Shown here in pieces: positions 1-10,026 of a stretch of DNA of 10,026 bases. Each line of letters opens with the position of its first letter. Within the stretch, counting starts at the first letter, position 1. The notes below the pieces were generated by a model, which made no database searches, was not told the origin of the DNA, and saw only the letters and a list, made by a program, of their open reading frames with translations. The position numbers and the translations under genes are program-made. This stretch comes from Campylobacterota bacterium (lineage in GTDB: Bacteria > Campylobacterota > Campylobacteria > Campylobacterales > Sulfurovaceae), in NCBI GenBank assembly GCA_013153825.1, contig JAADDP010000178.1:1-10026 (forward strand). The letters are read 5' to 3'.

Positions 1-4
1 CCAT
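1..4 (-). CDS. Start of the next operon gene, probably nuoH (partial)
   Basis: Only the ATG (complement of positions 2-4) and one further base are inside the window. The ATG lies 3 nt beyond the TAG stop of the second nuoG and is preceded by a strong GGGAGG Shine-Dalgarno 8 nt upstream, inside the end of that nuoG. In nuo operons nuoH, the quinone-site membrane subunit, follows nuoG, so nuoH is the expected product. That identity rests on gene order alone, since no protein sequence is visible. Confidence 0.45.
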
Positions 5-7
5 ACT

Positions 8-2341
8 CTATACCTCCCTAATAATTACTTTTTGGTATCTTGAAGCTCCAAAGAGTTCATATACATTCTCAGCACTCTTAAAATCTGGAATGGCAACAAT
101 ATCTCCAGCCATTCTATCGTCTACAATCACATCTAGCTCTAAGTTTCCACTATCTAGCTCAACTATAACTCTCTTAGAGAGCTTTTTAGCCATCTCTGGA
201 CTCACATATAGCCCAAACTCCTCAAATATCTGGTGAGCCTTATTGGTAAAGTCATTAAACTGTCTTTGTGGATTACATCTATATGCAATTTGCCCATCTA
301 AAACAATCTTATCATCAAATTTCTCTATCTTAGATGGCTTTGGTTCAACCTCAACTACATCTAATCTATATCCTCTATCCTCCGTTCCATCATTTAGATA
401 TCGATTTGGAAGAGCATCAAACTCAATAGCCTTGAATCCTTTGGATTTTGGAAGGTGTGGAGTCCACTCAATTGTCAACTCTGGAGCATCGATTAACTCT
501 TGAACTATATCATTTAGAACATACCCATCATAATCTAATGCCACATTTGTTGGGAGAACTCTCTTGTTCATATTTGTAAATGTCCCCTCCTGCTGATTTA
601 GTGCTGGTATATCTAAATCCCCATCACCTAAAGCAGATAGTCTAAAGTCTCCAAGAGCGTTATATCCAACTGTATATCCATTCGCCTCATCATCTAAATC
701 ACAGATTAGAGCCACACCTAGAGAGTTAGTCTTTGGTGGAACCATAGCCACTTTTACAGGAGAGTAGTTCTCTAGTGCCACAATTAGATTTGCAATATTT
801 TTTGCTCTCTTGTGGAAGTATAAATCCTCTCCCACTATTAGGGCAAAACTCTCTTTCTTCTTCATCATCTTTGTAAATGCTTTGTCAAACTTAGCACTAT
901 CTTTTCCAAGAGCCTCTAGTAGCTTCTCTCTATCCAACTGCTCTTTTATCTCTTTTGGAAGCTTATCCTTATCTGCAAATAGCTCAAGTAGTAGAAGTAG
1001 TCCAAGCTCCTCTTCTCCAACCTTATGGGTAAACATCTCAATATTTTTTCCAAATGTTGGAACTAGATTATCTCCTACAGGGTGAAAATAGAAACCTGCA
1101 CCCTTATTTAACTTCTGAACATTATTAAAGGCGTATCTAGCATTTGGATTATCATTTCTAAGAGAGATACCAAGACTAATTACAAAATCACTCCCCATAA
1201 CCTGCTTAAAATCTAATGTATATAGCGATTTTCCAGATGCCTCTTTATAGAACTCTAAGAATATCTGAAATGCTCTAGCCTCTCTATTTATGAGCTTAAC
1301 CCCCAACTTCTCTTTTAGAGTCTGAAGCATCAGTGCCTCTTCATTTGTAATAACTGAGGTGAAGTTGATAACCTTAGCCTTTTTAAATGCCTCTATTGCC
1401 TTTGTAAATGCTTTAGGGTCTCTCTTTGCATCTCTATTCTCAAAGTCATAACCAAATCTACCAGCCCCACAGAGTGATACATAGTGGAACTCATTTGTAA
1501 CTCTATAAATCTTCTCTCTTCTATCGGATATAGAGGTTGGCTTCACCTCATAGTATATCTGACATCCACTACTACAGTGGGCACATGTTGCAGGAACTCT
1601 CTTTAAATCCCAAGCATTTGTCGTATATTGGAAATCTCTACTAACTAAAGCCCCAACAGGACATACAGCCACACACTCCCCACAATCGCTACAGTTTGTA
1701 TACTCTGTCCCATTGCTTGGAGCAATAATTGACTTTTGAAGCTTATTCCACATAGCGTAAGCATCTTTTGGCATTGAACCCTTTAGAGCTTTATCTAGTG
1801 CTGGACCTCCACGCTTTGTGGTCTTAATTGCAGAGTCTCCAATCATATCTTTACAGACAGTTGTACACCTCTCACACACAATACAGAGTCCTGCATCATA
1901 GTGCAGAACACTACTCCAGTTTTTTGTCTCTCTCTTTGTATCTGCTATAGTGTAGCTTTGTGAATCGACCTCAAGCTCTAGTGTATAGTTTTGTAACTCA
2001 CACTCTCCACTCTGGTCACAAACCCCACACTGTAGAGGGTGATTTACATCGTAAACCTCCATAATTGCTCTACGCTCTTTTAGGATATTTGGAGTATCAA
2101 CTGTAATCTCCATCCCATCTTTAACCTTAGCATTACATGCGTAAACCTGCTTTCCATCTGCCTCAACTAGACATATTCTACAAGCCAATGTAGGAGAACA
2201 TCTAGTTAAGTAGCAGATAGCAGGAATAAATAGATTATTGGCACGAGCAGCATTTAGGATATACTCACCCTCTCTAGCCTTATACTCAACACCATCTATC
2301 TTAATGCTAACCATATTATGTTTTGTTTCGATTTCACTCAT
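8..2341 (-). CDS. nuoG: NuoG paralogue 2: complex I Fe-S subunit with an additional 4Fe-4S cluster
   Basis: Electron-wire subunit of the complex I peripheral arm, cytoplasmic face of the membrane; 777 residues. In order: a 2Fe-2S ferredoxin domain with ligands Cys43, 54, 57 and 69 (cluster N1b); His101/Cys105/Cys108/Cys114 (His-Cys3 cluster N5); a pair of CxxCxxCxxxC motifs at Cys153/156/159/163 and Cys217/220/223/227; then CxxCxxxC...C at Cys253/256/260/291 (cluster N7); and a degenerate molybdopterin-oxidoreductase-like remainder. Standard NuoG binds a single N4 cluster where this protein has a two-cluster ferredoxin arrangement like that of [FeFe] hydrogenases and NADP-reducing hydrogenase subunits, so one more 4Fe-4S cluster is predicted. 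The start is chosen by an AGGA Shine-Dalgarno 7 nt upstream; the in-frame Met10 has none. It begins 1 nt after the stop of the preceding nuoG, with which it shares long conserved blocks. Confidence in the family is high; its exact place in the complex is inferred. Confidence 0.93.
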   Translation of the reverse strand: MSEIETKHNMVSIKIDGVEYKAREGEYILNAARANNLFIPAICYLTRCSPTLACRICLVEADGKQVYACNAKVKDGMEITVDTPNILKERRAIMEVYDVNHPLQCGVCDQSGECELQNYTLELEVDSQSYTIADTKRETKNWSSVLHYDAGLCIVCERCTTVCKDMIGDSAIKTTKRGGPALDKALKGSMPKDAYAMWNKLQKSIIAPSNGTEYTNCSDCGECVAVCPVGALVSRDFQYTTNAWDLKRVPATCAHCSSGCQIYYEVKPTSISDRREKIYRVTNEFHYVSLCGAGRFGYDFENRDAKRDPKAFTKAIEAFKKAKVINFTSVITNEEALMLQTLKEKLGVKLINREARAFQIFLEFYKEASGKSLYTLDFKQVMGSDFVISLGISLRNDNPNARYAFNNVQKLNKGAGFYFHPVGDNLVPTFGKNIEMFTHKVGEEELGLLLLLELFADKDKLPKEIKEQLDREKLLEALGKDSAKFDKAFTKMMKKKESFALIVGEDLYFHKRAKNIANLIVALENYSPVKVAMVPPKTNSLGVALICDLDDEANGYTVGYNALGDFRLSALGDGDLDIPALNQQEGTFTNMNKRVLPTNVALDYDGYVLNDIVQELIDAPELTIEWTPHLPKSKGFKAIEFDALPNRYLNDGTEDRGYRLDVVEVEPKPSKIEKFDDKIVLDGQIAYRCNPQRQFNDFTNKAHQIFEEFGLYVSPEMAKKLSKRVIVELDSGNLELDVIVDDRMAGDIVAIPDFKSAENVYELFGASRYQKVIIREV
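13..18 (-). promoter_or_regulatory. Ribosome binding site of the gene entering at the left edge
   Basis: Minus-strand GGGAGG sits 8 nt before the ATG at 4-2, within the last codons of the second nuoG. It is the main evidence that translation of another gene begins at the window edge and that the operon continues to the left. Confidence 0.6.
1997..2031. repeat. 35-nt block identical to 4239-4273 (nuoG2 copy)
   Basis: This stretch encodes the N5 cluster region (CGVCDQSGECEL) of NuoG2 and is base-for-base identical to positions 4239-4273 in NuoG1. It is a direct repeat between paralogues, not a mobile element. Confidence 0.8.
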
Positions 2342-2342
2342 A

Positions 2343-4574
2343 TTAGCTTCCTACTCTCTCTAATCTTCTAAATCTGTAAGAGGATAACAAAGCAGAACTT
2401 AATCCCAAATCATAAGTAGGATTAATAGCTATTGTCCCTTTTAAAGATGTATCAATCTTAAACACTCTATTGAACAATACTCCATCAATTTCAAAAGAAA
2501 TCTCATCTCCATCTTGTAGTTTTGAAGCAATAGAAAACTGTTTTGAGCCTAAAAGGTATATATTCTGCTTTAGAAGTTCAGATTTTGCTGTAAATGGAGA
2601 GAAGTGTTCCTGTGGGTTACAGTTATATATAACCGCCCCATCAATCCCATCACTCTCAACTGGCTCATCTAAAACTCCATCTATCTTAGTCGATATAGGC
2701 TCTAAGATATAGCCCCTCTTCTCCTCTCCTGTTAGCTCAAAATGGTTTGGTAGAGCATCAAACTCCACTGCTCTAAAGCCTCTATTCTCTGGTAATCTAC
2801 TGGTATAATCTACCGTCCACTCACTCTTTAACCCCAGAGCATTTGCGATATCATTTAGAGTATATCCACCATAATCTACTGCCACATTTAGAGGCACAAC
2901 TCTCTTATCTATTGATGTCGTAGTTCCCTCCTGCTGAATTAGAGATGGCATATCTAAATCTCCACCTCCCAAAGCAGATAGAGTAAAGTCACCTTTCACA
3001 TTATATCCTATGGTGTAACCCTCTACCTCATCATCTAAATCACAAATCAAACTAACTCCAAGTCCATTTGTAGCTGGAGGGATAACTATTAGATTAAAAT
3101 TGAAATATCTCTCAAGCAGTGCGATATATTTTGCGATACTATCGGCTCTTGAGCTTCTATATAGGTCTGCTCCAACAACTAAAGAGAACTCTCTCCTCTT
3201 CTCAAAAGATTTTACAAGTTGCTCAAGCTCCTCCTCTCCAATATTTGTATCAGCAGATATATTTCCAATATCTAGCTCATCTAAAAGCTCTTTAATATCT
3301 GAAGGTAGATTTTTATCTCTCAATAGAGTATATGCTAAAAGTGCTATAACGCCCTCTTCGGTATTTGGCTCATACTTTATAAATTGAGTTACAATATTTT
3401 TAATATTTATATCCTCAATTGGGTGCATATATACAACTCTAGCCTTCTTATGTTTACTCGCCATATTTATATGATACTTTGTAATTGGAGAGTCATCATT
3501 TACTCTTGTTCCAAATACCACTATGGCATCTGATTTTTTTAGAGTTTTTAAATCTCCACCATAAAGGCTCTTTCCACTTATACTACTATAAGCACTCATA
3601 AATTTCTGAAATGCTCTAGCATCATGAGAGATTAATCTATATCCAAACTTCTCTTTTAACTTTTGGAGTATTAGAGCCTCTTCATTTGTAATCTCATCAG
3701 CAAATATGATACTTTTTGCCTTTTTAAAAGCATCTATTGCCTTTTGAAACTGCTCTCTATCCCTTTTTACATTCTCATTTGCAAAATCAAATCCATATCT
3801 ACTAGCACTACACATTGTGCTAAACTCTGCCTCATTTGAGGTTCTATAGACTTTTCCATGTTTAACCTCATATGTCACATCGTGTCCAGCTTCACAGTGT
3901 GGACAAGATGATGGGATTTTCTTAAGCTCCCAAGCATTTGCACTATATTTAAAGTGTCTATCAACTAAAGCCCCAACAGGACATACAGCAGCAGCCTCTC
4001 CAAGAGTTGCAAAGTCTCTATCTCTCTTTACATTCTCAATAACAGATGAGTATCCACCAAACTTAACCTTTAGTGCCTCATCTCCTGTAATCTCAGTAGA
4101 TACCCTTACACACTTCTCACACATAATACATAGAGATGGGTCATATGAGACATATCCCCAATTCTCAACTGGTCTAAATTGGTCTCTTGCTGTAAAGTTC
4201 TGCTCTGCTACCTCAAACTCCATAGTCTTATTTTGAAGCTCACACTCTCCACTCTGGTCACAAACCCCACACTCTAGTGGATGGTTCACATTGTAGAGCT
4301 TCATAATATTTTGTCTCTCTTTGAAAAGCTCTGGAGTGTTGGTATTGACCTCTATCCCATCAACTGCCTTCTCTTGACAAGATAGGATAAATCCATCAAC
4401 ACCTTTTACATCTACAACACACATTCTACAAGAGGCAATAGGTAGAGTCTTTGTGAGATAACACATGGTTGGGATATATATACCATGCTCTCTTGCTATC
4501 TCTAATATGGTCTGTCCAAATTTACCCTTACACTCTTTTCCATCTATGGTAATAGTTATATCTCTTCTCTTCAT
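2343..4574 (-). CDS. nuoG: NuoG paralogue 1: complex I Fe-S subunit with altered N7 site
   Basis: Complex I peripheral-arm subunit carrying electrons from the input flavoprotein towards NuoI/NuoB; 743 residues from the chosen start. Visible ligands: Cys38/49/52/66 (2Fe-2S N1b), His98/Cys102/Cys105/Cys111 (N5), Cys149/152/155 plus Cys198 (single 4Fe-4S N4), and Cys224/227...255 of the N7 motif, where the third ligand position is His231 instead of Cys. The rest is a molybdopterin-oxidoreductase-like fold with no recognisable cofactor site. An upstream in-frame ATG at 4613 would add 13 residues lying inside the preceding gene. I prefer the ATG at 4574 because it overlaps the TGA of the flavoprotein gene by one base (TGATG) and the protein then begins directly at the ferredoxin beta-strand. 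The Shine-Dalgarno is weak (GGTGG), so translation is probably coupled. Its C-terminal half aligns by eye with NuoG2 over a shared LICDLDDE...GY block and a shared LNDI stretch, implying an old duplication. Confidence 0.93.
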   Translation of the reverse strand: MKRRDITITIDGKECKGKFGQTILEIAREHGIYIPTMCYLTKTLPIASCRMCVVDVKGVDGFILSCQEKAVDGIEVNTNTPELFKERQNIMKLYNVNHPLECGVCDQSGECELQNKTMEFEVAEQNFTARDQFRPVENWGYVSYDPSLCIMCEKCVRVSTEITGDEALKVKFGGYSSVIENVKRDRDFATLGEAAAVCPVGALVDRHFKYSANAWELKKIPSSCPHCEAGHDVTYEVKHGKVYRTSNEAEFSTMCSASRYGFDFANENVKRDREQFQKAIDAFKKAKSIIFADEITNEEALILQKLKEKFGYRLISHDARAFQKFMSAYSSISGKSLYGGDLKTLKKSDAIVVFGTRVNDDSPITKYHINMASKHKKARVVYMHPIEDINIKNIVTQFIKYEPNTEEGVIALLAYTLLRDKNLPSDIKELLDELDIGNISADTNIGEEELEQLVKSFEKRREFSLVVGADLYRSSRADSIAKYIALLERYFNFNLIVIPPATNGLGVSLICDLDDEVEGYTIGYNVKGDFTLSALGGGDLDMPSLIQQEGTTTSIDKRVVPLNVAVDYGGYTLNDIANALGLKSEWTVDYTSRLPENRGFRAVEFDALPNHFELTGEEKRGYILEPISTKIDGVLDEPVESDGIDGAVIYNCNPQEHFSPFTAKSELLKQNIYLLGSKQFSIASKLQDGDEISFEIDGVLFNRVFKIDTSLKGTIAINPTYDLGLSSALLSSYRFRRLERVGS
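4239..4273. repeat. 35-nt block identical to 1997-2031 (nuoG1 copy)
   Basis: NuoG1 copy of the repeat encoding the N5 cluster ligands; identical including synonymous positions. A second shared block of 27 nt lies at 3963-3989 and 1643-1669, over the CPVGALV segment. Confidence 0.8.
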
Positions 4575-6589
4575 CACACTGCCACCATCGATATGTAATA
4601 ACATCGCATACAACGCTCTGCCTCTGCTATCGCCTCTTCACCAGTAAACCCTAGATTTACCTCTCTATTGTTTGTTTTTCTCTCTTCTACATCTAACTTT
4701 TCACTAACCTGTCTTGGGAGTCCTGCAATCCAACCTGTCACCTTCTCACTCTTATTATAGACTTTAAGTTTAGATAGGTGGTCTTCCATAATCTCCTCAT
4801 CAGTTAGCTCACACTTTCCACCATTATAGATATATCTACTAATTACAGATGCAGCTCTCTTTGCCTGTCCTACTGCATTTACAATAGTCATAGGCCCATA
4901 CTCACAATCTCCACCTGCAAATACTCCATCTCTAGATGTCATAAAATCTTTTCCATTGGTAAGAAGAGTTCCCCAAGATGTGAGTTTCATATCCCACTCT
5001 TCAGGTAGAAGTGATAGGTCTGCCGATTGAGAAACAGCAGGAATTAGATAGTCACACTCTATCTCAAAGTCTGCCCCTTCAATCTTCTCTAGCTTTGGTC
5101 GTCCACCATCTGGATTTGGAACTAGCTCAAATCTATTAACTTTAAGCTTCTCAATCCTCTCTCCATTATCGATTATCTCCTCAATTGCAGAGTAGAATAT
5201 AAACTCAACACCCTCTTCAACTGCTTCGTGATACTCCTCATAGGTTGTATTTCTAATGATGGTTTTTTCATCTCTTCTATAGAGCATAATTACCTTTTTT
5301 GCCCCCTCTCTAATGGAGCATCTAACAACATCCATAGATGTAAATCCACCACCAACACAGACTACAACCTTATCTTTTAACTCATTTGATGCAGGGCTTC
5401 CTATACCATACTTATTCCATAGGTTTACCTTATCAAGCATTGAGATAGCTCCCCAATATCCACCCATATTTGGGTTCTCATTTTTAGCTCTGACCTTTTT
5501 AGATAGTCTTGTTCCAAAACCTAAAAATACTGCATCATAATCTCTATCTAGCTCTCTTAGCTTCTCTGCATCAACTCTACAGTTATTTGTGATTGATACA
5601 GCCTCCATTCCAAGCACTAAATCTATATCTTTTTGATATTTAGATATTGGCATTCTATACTCAGGAACTCCAACTGCTACCTCTCCACCATTTACAGGAA
5701 GCTCTTCAAATATATCTACCTTTATCCCCTCTAGTGCTAGATAGTATGCAACTGTAAGCCCTGCAGGTCCTGCCCCTACTACTGCCACTTTTTTACCATC
5801 ATTTCTTAAAGGCTTTGGCTCTTTTGGGTGTAGCCAAGATAGCCCATGGTCTGTCTCATAATCTGCACCAAGCCTCTTTAACTCCATAATAGATATAGGC
5901 TCATCTAAATTTGCTCTTCTACAAGCATCTTCACAAGGGTGAGGGCAGACTCTTCCACAGGTATGTGCTAGAGGCATAGTCTGCCTTGTAGCCTTTAGAG
6001 AGTCCTCAAACTGCATATCTCTAACACCCTCAATATATGCTGGAATATCTACATGGGCTGGACACATATCACTACACGGGGCTGTAACTTTTGCTATGTA
6101 GTTGATGCTCTTATTATCATAATGTTTAGATTTAACCTGCTCACTTATACACCTATCAAACTGCTCTTTATAGTGTTCCATTAGGTCTAAGATTGGCTTT
6201 GGAACTGTTCTACCAATTTCACACTTTGAGGTCTTCATCATAGTTTGGCTAATCTCTTTTAGGTGGGCAATATCATCAAAGCTCCCCTCACCTCTTGCTA
6301 TCTTATCGAGTAAGTCATATAGAACCTTACCTCCCCATCTACCAGGAGCACACCTTCCACAAGCTTCACTATACTCTTGATATTGAGCAGAGTATCTACA
6401 AGCAAGTTCCACTGCATCAATATCCTCATCAAATATAGCCACTCCATCCCAACCAATAAAGGCTTTAGAGTCTCTCTCTCCATGATAGGTCTCTGGCAGT
6501 TTAAAGTTTGACTCACTCCACTCACTAGATGGTTTACCACGATTATCGATAAACTCACCCTGCCAAGTAGAGAAAACTAATTTTGCCAT
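4574..6589 (-). CDS. GltD-type FAD/NAD(P) iron-sulfur oxidoreductase in the nuoF position
   Basis: Predicted electron-input subunit replacing NADH-binding NuoF; 671 residues, cytoplasmic. Residues about 60-145 resemble the C-terminal 4Fe-4S domain of NuoF (SEACGRC, then a helical stretch ending at Cys123), but the third Cys of the N3 motif is Gly83; Cys64 is nearby. Residues about 165-240 form a Fer4_20-like segment with Cys172, 176, 211, 215, 219 and 223. A FAD Rossmann motif (VAVVGAGPAGL, 268-278), an NAD(P) Rossmann motif (GGGFTSMD, 413-420, followed by YRRDE) and the distal FAD motif (AGGDCEYGP, 558-566) match glutamate synthase small subunit, NfnB and DsrL relatives. A CxxC (660/663) lies 8 residues from the C-terminus. 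The NuoF NADH/FMN-binding N-terminal domain is absent. It starts one base into the NuoE-like stop (TAATG) and ends overlapping nuoG1. Physiological donor (NADPH, NADH or ferredoxin) cannot be decided from sequence. Automated annotation may call it a glutamate synthase subunit, which the context contradicts. Confidence 0.88.
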   Translation of the reverse strand: MAKLVFSTWQGEFIDNRGKPSSEWSESNFKLPETYHGERDSKAFIGWDGVAIFDEDIDAVELACRYSAQYQEYSEACGRCAPGRWGGKVLYDLLDKIARGEGSFDDIAHLKEISQTMMKTSKCEIGRTVPKPILDLMEHYKEQFDRCISEQVKSKHYDNKSINYIAKVTAPCSDMCPAHVDIPAYIEGVRDMQFEDSLKATRQTMPLAHTCGRVCPHPCEDACRRANLDEPISIMELKRLGADYETDHGLSWLHPKEPKPLRNDGKKVAVVGAGPAGLTVAYYLALEGIKVDIFEELPVNGGEVAVGVPEYRMPISKYQKDIDLVLGMEAVSITNNCRVDAEKLRELDRDYDAVFLGFGTRLSKKVRAKNENPNMGGYWGAISMLDKVNLWNKYGIGSPASNELKDKVVVCVGGGFTSMDVVRCSIREGAKKVIMLYRRDEKTIIRNTTYEEYHEAVEEGVEFIFYSAIEEIIDNGERIEKLKVNRFELVPNPDGGRPKLEKIEGADFEIECDYLIPAVSQSADLSLLPEEWDMKLTSWGTLLTNGKDFMTSRDGVFAGGDCEYGPMTIVNAVGQAKRAASVISRYIYNGGKCELTDEEIMEDHLSKLKVYNKSEKVTGWIAGLPRQVSEKLDVEERKTNNREVNLGFTGEEAIAEAERCMRCYYISMVAV

Positions 6590-6903
6590 TACTTAGCCTT
6601 TTTAGTTTCTGTCTTTGTAGAGGTCTCCTCTTCTGCTCTATTTGCCTCCTCTCTCCTCTTCTCTATTGTAGCTCTATCCAAACGCTTAACAACAATAGTC
6701 CAATCAACCTCGTTAAATTTTAAAGAGTTCATAAGCTCATGCCCCAACTCTTTTATGTAATCTGCACTCTTTTGAATATGTGAGAAGTCTCCAACCTCAA
6801 ATAGAAAAATTCCAACCTCTCCAACTCTCAAGTCGCTCTCAATTAACTCTCCCATTCGACCATAGAAGTCATCTTTTAGGTGTCTTAAATCGTATCTCTT
6901 CAT
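6589..6903 (-). CDS. Small cysteine-free protein in the nuoE position
   Basis: A 104-residue protein between nuoD and the flavoprotein gene. It contains no cysteine, so it cannot hold the 2Fe-2S cluster (N1a) that defines true NuoE. Residues 1-73 look like a compact alpha/beta fold (a hydrophobic strand around GEVGIFLFEVGDF, 28-40, and another at DWTIVVKRL); residues 74-104 are a charged, Lys/Glu/Thr-rich tail, probably disordered. The location matches the short protein that replaces NuoE in Campylobacter and Helicobacter nuo operons (Cj1575c/HP1264 type), and I infer homology. Likely role: an adaptor docking the flavoprotein onto NuoG or NuoD. The start is well supported by AGGAGG, which overlaps the TAG stop of nuoD, 9 nt upstream of this ATG. 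The stop overlaps the next ATG by one base. Confidence 0.82.
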   Translation of the reverse strand: MKRYDLRHLKDDFYGRMGELIESDLRVGEVGIFLFEVGDFSHIQKSADYIKELGHELMNSLKFNEVDWTIVVKRLDRATIEKRREEANRAEEETSTKTETKKAK

Positions 6904-6912
6904 TCTCCCCTC

Positions 6913-8142
6913 CTATCGGTCAACTTCACCAAATACAATATTGGTTGAACCAATGATTGTTACAACATCAGCCAAATATGTGCCAACTAAAAGCTCTTGT
7001 AGAAGCCCTGTGTGGAAAAAGCTTGGTGCTCTACACTTTAATCTATATGCGTATGGCTCACCTTCCGATTTAATATAGAAGCCTAGCTCACCCTTTGGAG
7101 ACTCTGTTGGTGCATAAACCTCACCCTTTGGTGGTCTCATACCTTGAGTCACAAGCACAAAGTGTTGCATTAGTGCGTAATTTTGGGTCATTATCTCCTC
7201 TTTTGGAGCAGAGATATATTTTGGAGCATGTGCCATTAGCTGTGGCTCAGTCTCATCATACATCATAATCAACTGTCTTAAAATCTTTGTGGACTCCAAC
7301 ATCTCAGCCATATAGAGTCTATATCTCCCATAACTATCATTTGTATCAGCTACTGGAATATCAAAATCCAACTCATCATATAGCTCATATGGCTCCTCTT
7401 TTCTAACATCATAAGCGATACCTGAACCTCTTAACATAGGTCCTGTACAACCCCAACTTAGAGCATCTTCTGGAGATAGAACCCCTACATTTTCTAGTCT
7501 CATTCTCCAAATTCTATTATCCTCAAGTAGAGCATTATATGTGATTTTTACCTCTTTATCTACATTATCACAGAACTCTCTAAGGTTAATCATAAAATCA
7601 TCTGGTAAATCTAGTGGAACTCCCCCAATTCTAACAGCACTATGAGTTAATCTTGCTCCACAGTAATCCTCCATTAAGTCCATTGCAAACTCTCTCTCCC
7701 TAAATGCGTATAGGAATACAGACATAGCCCCAACATCTAGTGCATGGGTGGCAATAAAGAATAGGTGAGAGATAATTCTATTTAACTCTAGAAGGATTGT
7801 TCTAATAACTTGGGCTCTTCTTGGAACCTCAACTCCCAAAAGTCTCTCAACAGCTAGAGCATAAGCGTAGTTATTTGAGGTTGAAGCGATATAGTCCAAT
7901 CTATCTGTAGTTGGCAAAAACTCATTATAGGTCATATTCTCTGCCATCTTCTCTATACCACGATGTAGATAACCGATATCTGGATACGCCTTTACAACCT
8001 GCTCTCCATCTAACTCTAAAACAAGTCTCAACTGACCATGAGCTGAAGGGTGCTGTGGTCCAAAGTTGATAACCATGGTGTTATCTTCTCTCTCAAAGTT
8101 TAAATTCTCAAAAAAGGGGGTTAGTTTATTTACTTCTTGCAT
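6913..8142 (-). CDS. nuoD: NuoD, 49-kDa subunit of complex I
   Basis: Q-module subunit forming, with NuoB, the quinone-reduction site; 409 residues, usual length for an unfused NuoD. It carries the family signatures [15 protein letters not shown] (26-40), HRGIEK (60-65) and the C-terminal [12 protein letters not shown]. Aligning by eye with the Thermus subunit, His35 and Tyr84 correspond to the quinone-headgroup ligands His38 and Tyr87, so the site looks intact. Campylobacterota normally use menaquinone, so that is the likely acceptor. The start has an AGAGGAG Shine-Dalgarno overlapping the nuoC stop, 5 nt before the ATG; the gap to nuoC is 10 nt. nuoC and nuoD are separate genes here, unlike the fused nuoCD of enterobacteria. 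Confidence 0.98.
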
Positions 8143-8152
8143 CGCAACTCCT

Positions 8153-8941
8153 CTACTTTCTCTTATCTAGCTGTTTTGTTCCAGCGTTGTAGTTTACGAA
8201 GAATGTCTCACTATACTCAATTGGAGTCTCAGGCTCTCCCTCACTAATATCAGCTCCAAATGGAACCTCTCTTCCAACTCTAGAGAACCTCTTAGTATCA
8301 TATCTATCTATCTTAGCAGGGTCTCTATTCTCCTCTCCAATTATCTCTCTAGCCTCTTTTCCAAATATTTTATCAACCTCATACCACTGTGCAAACTCAT
8401 CTCCATGTAGAGGATATGTTTTTAGTAGAGGGTGTCCCTCCCAATCATCTGGCATAATAATTCTCTTTAGGAATGGGTGGTTATTAACCTTAATACCAAA
8501 CATATCAAACATCTCTCTCTCTGCAAAGTTAGCTGCCTTATATAGAGGAACAATTGACTCAATTGCCAACCCCTGCTCAATTTTACAGACAACTCTCATT
8601 CTCTTTCTCTCTTTTAGGTTTAGAAGTTGATAGAAAATCTCAAATTTCCCCTCTTGAGCCAGATAGTCAACAGCACTCATCTCTGTTAACATCTCATAAC
8701 CACACTCATTTTTTAAAACTTCAATCGCCTTGAAGTTATCTTCATGGTTAACTTCAACTCTCAACTGCCCAATCTGGATATATGCAGATTTAACATCAAC
8801 TTTAGCCTCTAGAGCCTCTAGCTGTTTGGCAAAAACCTCATCAGTTGATACATCTTCTGTTGGGACTGTTGGAACGACATAAAATCTATCTGTATAGTAT
8901 GCCTTTGCTTGAACATTATCTTTTGGTCTATATTTTCTCAT
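8153..8941 (-). CDS. nuoC: NuoC, 30-kDa subunit of complex I
   Basis: Peripheral-arm Q-module subunit that packs against NuoD and NuoB; it binds no cofactor. 262 residues. The family signature lies at residues about 141-178 ([10 protein letters not shown], then [18 protein letters not shown]). Before the conserved domain there is an N-terminal extension of about 45 residues starting MRKYRPKDN, which I associate with Campylobacterota NuoC proteins. After the signature comes an acidic, proline-containing tail of about 80 residues. The ATG overlaps the nuoB TAA by one base (TAATG), indicating translational coupling. Confidence 0.97.
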
Positions 8942-9459
8942 TATATCAACCTTAAGTTCTGTTTTTTATTCTTTTTCATATCTGCTGAATCTCTTCTAAC
9001 CTTTTTTTGAAGCATCATTAGTGCATATTGAAGAGTCTCTGGTCTTGGAGCACACCCTGGTAGGTAGATATCAACTGGCACAATTCTATCAACTCCTTGA
9101 ACTGTAGCATATGTGTTGAACATCCCTCCAGTATTTGCACAGCTTCCCATAGAGATAACCCACTTTGGCTCTGTCATCTGGTCATATAACCTTCTTGCAA
9201 ACTCTGCATGTTTCTTAGATAGAGTCCCTGCTAAAATCATAACATCTGCCTGTCTAGGACTTGCTCTAAATATTGTCCCAAATCTATCAAAGTCATATCT
9301 GCTGTCCCCACTTGCCATCATCTCAATTGCACAACATGCCAAACCATATGTTAAAGGCCATAGGGAGTTACTTCTACCCCAGTTTATTAGATGGTCAACT
9401 GTTGTAAGAGCTACTGGTAACCCTCCAGATGATGCGTAATTTACTTGATGCTGTGCCAT
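8941..9459 (-). CDS. nuoB: NuoB, cluster N2 subunit of complex I
   Basis: Carries the terminal 4Fe-4S cluster N2 that passes electrons to quinone at the interface with NuoD. 172 residues. All four expected ligands are visible: the tandem Cys42-Cys43 ([11 protein letters not shown]), Cys107 ([10 protein letters not shown]) and Cys136 (LPGCAPRPE). The fold and length are typical of the PSST/NuoB family; the lysine-rich C-terminus (about 153-170) is ordinary. The start is supported by AAGGAG 7 nt upstream. The first 19 nt overlap the end of nuoA. Confidence 0.98.
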
Positions 9460-9830
9460 TCAAGAGCTCCTTTCTTCCATGCGTAAATAAATCCAATAGT
9501 AAGTAGTAAAATAAACAATATCATCTCAGCAAAACCGAACCAACCGAGCAATTTAAAATCTATCGCCCATGGAAACATAAATATTATCTCAACATCAAAA
9601 AGAATGAATAGAAGTGCTATTAAGTAAAATTGAGCTGAAATAGTATTTGGTTGTTTAGTCACCTCTGGTCCACACTCATAGATTGTAAGCTTTAACTTTT
9701 CAGTATCTAGCCTTGCCAATTTTCTACTTATAAATCGTGATAGAAATAGTGTTGCGTTAAATGCACCAACTGTTGCGATAAATAAGAAGAAGACACCTAA
9801 ATAGGGGTGATTGTTAATCACATGAGTCAT
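9441..9830 (-). CDS. nuoA: NuoA, membrane subunit of complex I
   Basis: Small integral membrane subunit at the junction of the membrane and peripheral arms; first gene of the operon. 129 residues. Three hydrophobic segments are visible at about 11-34, 68-90 and 97-118. Family residues are present: YECG (51-54) in the loop and FDVE (78-81) in the second helix, with Glu102 in the third. A TTG one codon upstream (9833) could be read as a start, but AAGGAG is 5 nt from the ATG at 9830 and only 2 nt from the TTG, so the ATG is preferred. The 3' end overlaps nuoB by 19 nt. Confidence 0.97.
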
Positions 9831-9835
9831 CAAAA

Positions 9836-9841
9836 CTCCTT
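9836..9841 (-). promoter_or_regulatory. nuoA ribosome binding site
   Basis: Minus-strand AAGGAG, 5 nt before the ATG at 9830. It decides the nuoA start in favour of this ATG over the adjacent upstream TTG. Confidence 0.75.
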
Positions 9842-9902
9842 TTCCTAAAATTATTCTGTTACAAATTTCTACAAAACATTGAGAAATATGAAGAATATTA
9901 GG

Positions 9903-9920
9903 CTTATATTAGCAAAAAAA
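9903..9920 (-). promoter_or_regulatory. Candidate sigma-70 promoter of the nuo operon
   Basis: On the minus strand seven T residues (9920-9914) run into TGC and then TAATAT (9911-9906), an extended -10 preceded by a T-stretch. Campylobacterota housekeeping promoters typically have this shape and lack a recognisable -35; none is seen here (AACCTA at the -35 position). Transcription from it would start around 9898 and give a leader of roughly 65-70 nt before nuoA. Position and shape fit well, but there is no transcript evidence. Confidence 0.5.
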
Positions 9921-9954
9921 TTATTAAATAGGTTGTGTAGCAATAGTGCATTTG

Positions 9955-9970
9955 AGGGTTGTAAAACCTT
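9955..9970. other. Short hairpin: 6-bp stem with a GTAA loop
   Basis: AGGGTT, then GTAA, then AACCTT forms a 6-bp stem (one G-T pair) with a GNRA-type loop on the plus strand. It directly abuts the inverted repeat at 9970-9988. No T-run follows on either strand, so it is a poor intrinsic terminator. It may be chance in AT-rich DNA or part of a compound regulatory site. Confidence 0.25.
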
Positions 9971-9988
9971 TGTAACTAAGTGTTACAA
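9970..9988. promoter_or_regulatory. Perfect inverted repeat TTGTAAC-N5-GTTACAA upstream of the nuo promoter
   Basis: A 7-bp perfect dyad with a 5-bp spacer, about 60 bp upstream of the candidate nuo -10. The half-site TGTTACAA recurs at 9857-9864 inside the predicted nuoA leader. Size and symmetry suit a dimeric transcription factor, loosely recalling Crp/Fnr-type sites, but the spacer and half-site do not match one I can name. It also overlaps TGT-TACAAT (9981-9989), a possible extended -10 on the plus strand, so it could control a divergent gene beyond the right edge. Confidence 0.4.
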
Positions 9989-10026
9989 TAGATATGAAGC
10001 AAATAATATATTATTATATGAAACAG

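Follow-up and report, generated by a model that had tools for sequence, protein, structure and literature searches.

Near-absence of the word GATC in an uncultured Sulfurovum-like bacterium and its relatives, and GATC-type restriction systems after hom

What has removed the word GATC from the genome of an uncultured Campylobacterota bacterium, and when? The question is raised by a stretch of 10,026 nucleotides (contig JAADDP010000178.1, hereafter the window) that carries part of the complex I (nuo) operon of genome G000, a bin of 1.21 Mb in 199 contigs. When a genome avoids a site, the usual reading is that a single restriction system has left its imprint on it. Here, the near-absence of GATC spans a clade, can be bounded in time and stands beside a chromosomal slot for three known and two candidate types of GATC enzyme. 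Three sources of word avoidance can thus be told apart by test, namely self-cutting, gene exchange between strains whose enzymes differ, and an as yet unknown enzyme; the clade also yields candidate GATC nucleases.

GATC in the window, the genome and the clade

The initial annotation reported that GATC is missing from the whole window, and our count confirmed this:

1..10026, both strands: GATC-free stretch, 0 sites against 37.2 expected (second-order Markov model) and 29.7 (codon shuffles)

Base composition alone would predict 32.4 sites and, as GATC is its own reverse complement, the absence applies to both strands. The annotation allowed that codon-shuffled sequences might also come near zero. 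However, when synonymous codons were shuffled within the eight nuo reading frames, the count had a standard deviation of 3.6 and a minimum of 17, and zero was reached in 0 of 2,000 shuffles. The deficit runs through all codon phases (observed against shuffled, with a hyphen at the codon boundary: GAT-C 0 and 18.3; nGA-TCn 0 and 3.8; nnG-ATC 0 and 7.4). Isoleucine codons that follow a G-ending codon are ATT 24 times, ATA 21 times and ATC never. The codon pairs singled out by the annotation read as it had stated, with GAT-CTN in none of 17 Asp-Leu pairs and the two Arg-Ser pairs written AGA-AGC and AGA-AGT, whereas its base composition differed somewhat from the counted values (A 28.5, T 33.4, C 23.9, G 14.2%).

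The comparison of observed and expected counts, proposed for window and genome alike, gave the same picture in a sample of 20 of the 199 contigs, picked by number (158,509 bases). This sample holds 26 GATC against 700 expected (Markov), an observed/expected ratio (o/e) of 0.037; no other tetramer, pooled with its reverse complement, has a ratio this low. An effect confined to the window is thereby ruled out, since the genome sample is equally GATC-poor; indeed, the zero of the window is ordinary because the genome-sample rate predicts about 1.4 sites per window. Surviving GATC sites are preceded by G in 18 of 51 cases against 17% expected (both strands, so that the counts are not independent). 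The criterion of under-representation in Rusinov et al. 2015 (PMC4687349) is a ratio of at most 0.78 by Karlin's method, and G000, at 0.037 by a Markov rather than Karlin's calculation, lies clearly below it.

To place this genome among its kin, we took the best 80 of 237 NuoD relatives, each with up to 10 kb on either side, leaving out L049 as it belongs to the same bin as L060. The o/e of each relative comes from one nuo locus of 3-21 kb, that of the window from the genome sample, and the NuoD tree carries only Shimodaira-Hasegawa-like approximate likelihood ratio support, with 33 forks open. Across the relatives, o/e spans 0 to 1.38. The window falls within a set of 24 genomes (support 96), 21 of which lie below 0.3 and 13 below 0.06; three members (L007, L019, L023) stand at 0.51-0.61, and all 27 genomes with o/e of 0.8 or more fall outside the set. 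Very low GATC also occurs outside it (L032, L054, L065, L075, L079), and a switch between low and not low, drawn at 0.6, requires at least 11 changes on the tree. Zeros of short loci persisted when hom flanks were added (G061 0/28, G062 0/32, G064 0/23). GATC has thus been all but eliminated from the genomes of this bacterium and of its closest kin.

Silent sites bound how recent the selection was. Compared with eight relatives of very low GATC (L001, L003, L005, L006, L008, L010, L012, L014), the window has a different base at 45-55% of the four-fold positions in nuoD. In a model where synonymous codons of the window are redrawn freely at random, a pair difference of 0.43 corresponds to an o/e of 0.55, and an o/e of about 0.04 to fewer than 5% of codons redrawn. 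A relaxed genome would therefore regain about half its GATC at the observed silent divergence, which argues for recent selection; under this model, each very low lineage must have been under selection against GATC until recently. Such selection is firmly supported; its agent was not found in the incomplete genome of the window. The long-term selection suggested by the initial annotation thus gains strong support from the genome sample, the codon phases, the spread over the clade and the recency.

GATC-type systems in the relatives and the site after hom

D12 methylases (PF02086) and DpnI (PF06044) were searched for in all 80 genomes, DpnII (PF04556) and MutH (PF02976) in 50, and C5 and N6_N4 methylases in 33 (5 of them at o/e of 0.8 or more); Dam was counted only where PF02086 matched above 200 bits. 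Under uniform counting, cognate GATC systems were present in 12 of the 80 genomes, that is in 12/49 below 0.6, 0/4 at 0.6-0.8 and 0/27 at 0.8 or more (Fisher p 0.006). Limiting the count to Dam and DpnI, the families searched throughout, gave 11/49 against 0/27 (p 0.006), with neither DpnI nor a strong Dam match in any of the 27 GATC-normal genomes. All carriers are GATC-poor. Because Dam/DpnII, DpnI and Sau3AI-type systems occur in relatives, and were seen only in GATC-poor ones, GATC-targeting restriction is the best class of cause. To this extent the GATC-cleaving system proposed by the initial annotation stands; its placement in the host is not supported, as none was found in the 77.6%-complete G000 and none counted in the 14 other most depleted genomes.

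By family, DpnII was present in 1 of 34 genomes of the window's genus (its own included), in 3/60 genomes in one search and 3/50 in another; DpnI exceeded its cut-off in 3/50 and 1/30, MutH was matched in 1/50, and D12 exceeded its cut-off in 14/50 and 7/30. PF02086 matches above 200 bits came from seven genomes (L020, L032, L054, L059, L069, L072, L074), every one GATC-poor, and NCBIfam assigns the Dam family to those of the proteins that were scanned. The D12 proteins of GATC-normal L031 and L064 reach 32-34 bits against a Dam cut-off of 114.85. Two further loci pass this cut-off and were left uncounted: L001, which scores 162 bits for NCBIfam Dam and has a nuclease of TdeIII type next to it, and L079 (206 bits). 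If L001 were included, one carrier would appear among the 15 most depleted genomes.

A Dam-family methylase accompanies a DpnII nuclease in G103, G122 and G099, and in G079 (L269:1938-3755) the two are fused in a single protein of 606 amino acids (aa) with a second methylase downstream. DpnI-type relatives have PF06044 with no whole Dam alongside; in G136 a Dam fragment lies beside DpnI. PF02976 matches two stretches of a 468-aa protein in G106 next to a C5-like methylase, a pair which we take to be of Sau3AI type and GATC-specific. For the other enzymes too, GATC is the presumed target, judged from the family. MutH mismatch repair, suggested as a cause of GATC avoidance in PMC4687349, was rejected, since PF02976 occurs in 1/50 genomes only and there as the double-domain protein beside a C5 methylase. 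Among side observations, C5 methylase matches can be numerous in GATC-poor genomes, with 8 to 12 in G063, G071 and G083, whereas each of the five GATC-normal genomes covered by the C5 search had at most 3 (range 0 to 3); G099 (L270:2645-4562) has a DndB-like gene and a gene of no known function between Dam and DpnII.

Where do these systems sit? In two genomes DpnI lies directly downstream of hom (homoserine dehydrogenase), for which a protein search gave a match in 47/50 genomes. The empty state is hom followed by a DUF520 gene, which we take to be yajQ (G061, G068, G077, G085, G090). GATC-type cassettes follow hom in 12/15 carriers, a figure less clean than the 9/12 of the first count because G076, G083 and G118 joined the carriers through later looks, partly at hom itself. 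The arrangements are as follows:

L236:399-7073, L237, L238, L261 with L358, L264 with L359, L354, L355, L357: hom-site loci
G103 and G122, after hom: fic, Dam, small gene, DpnII, second methylase, yajQ
G104, after hom: Dam, 185-aa protein, second methylase; G134 the same with an intervening gene, yajQ next
G070 and G096, after hom: DpnI; G098, DpnI behind fic, yajQ further on; G136, DpnI beside a Dam piece
G106, after hom: fic, C5 methylase, two-MutH-domain nuclease, yajQ sequence beyond
G076 and G083, after hom: C5 methylase sharing 70% identity over 440 aa with the G106 enzyme; in G076 then a 308-aa gene and yajQ
G118, after hom: fic, start of Dam at the contig end

Elsewhere than hom lie the GATC systems of G090 and G079, and in G099 the contig ends at hom. 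GATC-normal G084 has a different C5 methylase after hom, which shows that occupancy is not limited to GATC enzymes. In Sulfurovum-like genomes the stretch after hom is a locus of exchange for GATC-type systems that are unrelated to one another.

Several unannotated putative nucleases accompany GATC-type methylases in the relatives; their target word would be GATC, going by the adjoining methylase. The Dam cassettes of G104, G134, G122 and G090 hold a PD-(D/E)XK-like protein of 183-190 aa (PDDEXK_11, 24.7 bits against a cut-off of 23.7), with DpnII not seen alongside in 3 of the 4 cases, which makes it a candidate small nuclease:

L238:2899-3453, L237:3455-4003, L264:1496-2047, L272:4639-5199: PD-(D/E)XK-like protein

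Another candidate is the 308-aa protein of G076 (L354:1752-2675), which lies next to a C5 methylase of Sau3AI type in the interval from hom to yajQ. It resembles GIY-YIG at E 0.002, under the curated cut-off, and the best 120 of its 365 database relatives have no functional name.

What keeps these genomes GATC-poor

The near-absence of GATC results from long-lasting selection that acted until very recently, with GATC-targeting restriction enzymes that circulate in the Sulfurovum-like group as the likely agents. These would be of the DpnII, DpnI and Sau3AI types, with some candidates yet undescribed, and would be gained, swapped and lost mostly at the one chromosomal site after hom. GATC-poor lineages would then be harmed less by the arrival of a GATC enzyme, by its persistence after its methylase is gone or by the loss of both, and GATC-poor DNA would pass more easily between strains with different GATC enzymes. 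The enzymes of the relatives would thus be the cause of depletion, and the agent of G000 itself may have just been lost, lie in the missing part of the genome or be of an unrecognised kind.

Several results weigh against the circulating enzymes. The initial annotation proposed a search of the genome for a GATC-specific restriction enzyme and methylase, and profile searches of G000 gave no match in six families (DpnII, D12/Dam, DpnI, MutH (Sau3AI), N6_N4 and C5); with a genome 77.6% complete (contamination 5.2%) and other families not searched, this does not prove absence. Carriers were counted in 11 of the 34 less extreme depleted genomes but in none of the 15 most depleted (below 0.06; p 0.011), and GATC is not clearly rarer in carriers than in non-carriers (p 0.10). 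The link to carriers depends on few independent events: only five pairs could be formed on supported branches, and the trait was concordant in 1.4 of them on average and never opposite. Among the 15 most depleted genomes, five (G000, G061, G062, G073, G097) have a readable sequence after hom, and our queries found no known GATC cassette in it; in G000 hom is followed by a 578-aa gene, with no restriction gene at the site. The site is unassembled in the other 10. The end of hom could be placed in 10 of the 15; in 6 of these the contig breaks off less than 1.2 kb after hom, and in none does it break off within that distance before hom, against 6/33 and 2/33 in other genomes. The remaining five of the 15 comprise three without a hom match, one with its first 100 residues at a contig end and one with hom split over two contigs. 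With the site unread in 10 and read without a GATC cassette in 5, missing assembly is only a partial answer for the absent systems.

It is possible, though we consider it rather unlikely, that many of the most depleted species share an unrecognised GATC-targeting defence, belonging to none of the Dam, DpnII, DpnI and Sau3AI families, which keeps GATC out. The lack of counted carriers among these 15, where selection must be recent, would fit such a defence, as would the absence of any D12, N6_N4 or C5 methylase match from G000, G061 and G100 and the putative nucleases that travel with GATC-type methylases in kin. However, the usual home of known systems is unassembled in 10 of the 15, variable genes drop out of bins, and no shared candidate was found at the methylase loci of the most depleted genomes, a search that covered the C5 loci of 11 of the 15, other methylase loci and loci of other genomes. 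Tests of word association gave GATC nominal p values of 0.02 and 0.03 with two methylase clusters, uncorrected for the many words and clusters compared. We can advance only as a tentative suggestion, doubtful in its full form, that the most GATC-poor species are kept so by an undescribed GATC system while, at the hom slot, unrelated folds (DpnI, DpnII, Sau3AI/MutH type, small PD-(D/E)XK, GIY-YIG-like) interchange with the word GATC held constant.

An old scar of a system lost in the group's common ancestor is improbable. Recovery after loss is described as slow (PMC4687349), and L007, L019 and L023 sit within the group at 0.51-0.61 as if recovering; however, a relaxed genome should by now sit near an o/e of 0.5, and 0.037 permits under about 5% of codons redrawn since selection ended. 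Mutation in place of selection, with methylated C in GATC decaying to T, can be given hardly any credence even in a group rich in C5 methylases, since the replacing words show no C-to-T bias: the GATT share of GAT followed by A, G or T is 27% against 32-34% for AATT, CATT and TATT within their own sets, and AATC is likewise not raised. Equally negligible is the idea that use of a GATC-cutting enzyme in library preparation or assembly produced the deficit. One sampled contig (L100) does start with GATC, but across the 10 kb of the window the reading frames are unbroken and use alternative synonymous codons where GATC could stand, and bins from other projects are equally depleted.

One further gene pair recurs at the C5 loci, a C5 methylase with a convergent gene for a 277-aa protein, found in 6 of the 15 most depleted genomes and in G083; G082 has the methylase with only a 29-aa remnant of the partner gene:

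L287:1261-3123, L280, L296, L299, L301, L303, L346: C5 methylase and 277-aa protein

With 49% identity to a sequence from Neisseria gonorrhoeae and 40% to a protein named HaeIII methylase, this methylase may recognise a word other than GATC. The best 120 of 496 database relatives of the 277-aa protein have no functional name, and no plasmid match was found. At another locus (L111:240-3082) a C5 methylase is fused to a D12 methylase, with an HNH protein adjoining.

Comparison with known systems, window genes and other rare words

The DpnI and DpnII systems of Streptococcus pneumoniae occupy one locus. Our genomes resemble that species in having alternative GATC enzymes in related genomes (PMC4687349), and the G103 and G122 cassettes hold Dam methylase, DpnII and a second methylase as its DpnII system does. 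Unlike there, the alternatives are seen between species, not strains, and lie after hom, with fic in some cassettes and yajQ beyond, and Sau3AI-type and candidate types share the site. An exchange of dam and drg (dam replacing gene) is known in Neisseria (PMC4269198, PMC516771); likewise, a DpnI-family gene (in Pfam, the Dam-replacing family) replaces Dam at one site, and G136 keeps a Dam piece beside DpnI. In contrast to Neisseria, different genes flank the hom site, and its occupants are of at least three kinds.

Avoidance of GATC has been described before in PMC4687349, including cases in which the enzyme is confined to related genomes, and Sulfurospirillum deleyianum is named there as a Campylobacterota case. 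As in those cases, GATC is strongly under-represented, the enzyme is often in related genomes only, and DpnI and DpnII types are mixed in one group. Unlike them, o/e is about 0.04 over most of an uncultured clade, silent sites set a bound on the recency, and no known system was counted in the most depleted genomes. None of the titles and abstract openings among the open-licence matches listed describes GATC depletion in Sulfurovum or DpnI, DpnII and Sau3AI at one locus.

All eight nuo genes of the window lie on the minus strand, and the closest records found for it are Sulfurovum-type metagenome bins:

9441..9833, minus: nuoA (complex I chain 3), PF00507
8941..9459, minus: nuoB (20 kDa subunit), PF01058
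8153..8941, minus: nuoC (30 kDa subunit), PF00329
6913..8142, minus: nuoD (49 kDa subunit), basis of the family tree, PF00346
6589..6903, minus: putative NuoE-like chain, PF16514
4574..6589, minus: NuoF-like flavoprotein, PF07992, PF14691, PF10589
2343..4613, minus: first NuoG-like protein, start codon not settled, PF13510, PF10588
8..2341, minus: second NuoG-like protein, PF13510, PF10588, PF04879

Words other than GATC are scarce too. The next-scarcest tetramers of the genome sample are GCGC (o/e 0.08), GGCC (0.20), CCGC (0.27) and ACGT (0.31), and among 6-base palindromes GCTAGC stands at 0/19.5 and GAGCTC at 5/66.3. Against codon shuffles, the window holds GTAC 2 times (20.4) and ACGT 0 times (10.4). 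GTAC, GCGC, GGCC, ACGT, GAGCTC and GCTAGC are strongly rare in the window and in L081-L100, as if several restriction systems had acted. Several GATC-less genomes are also without ACGT, and L013 is nearly without GTAC (1/27), CTAG (2/47), ACGT (0/7) and GATC (1/48).

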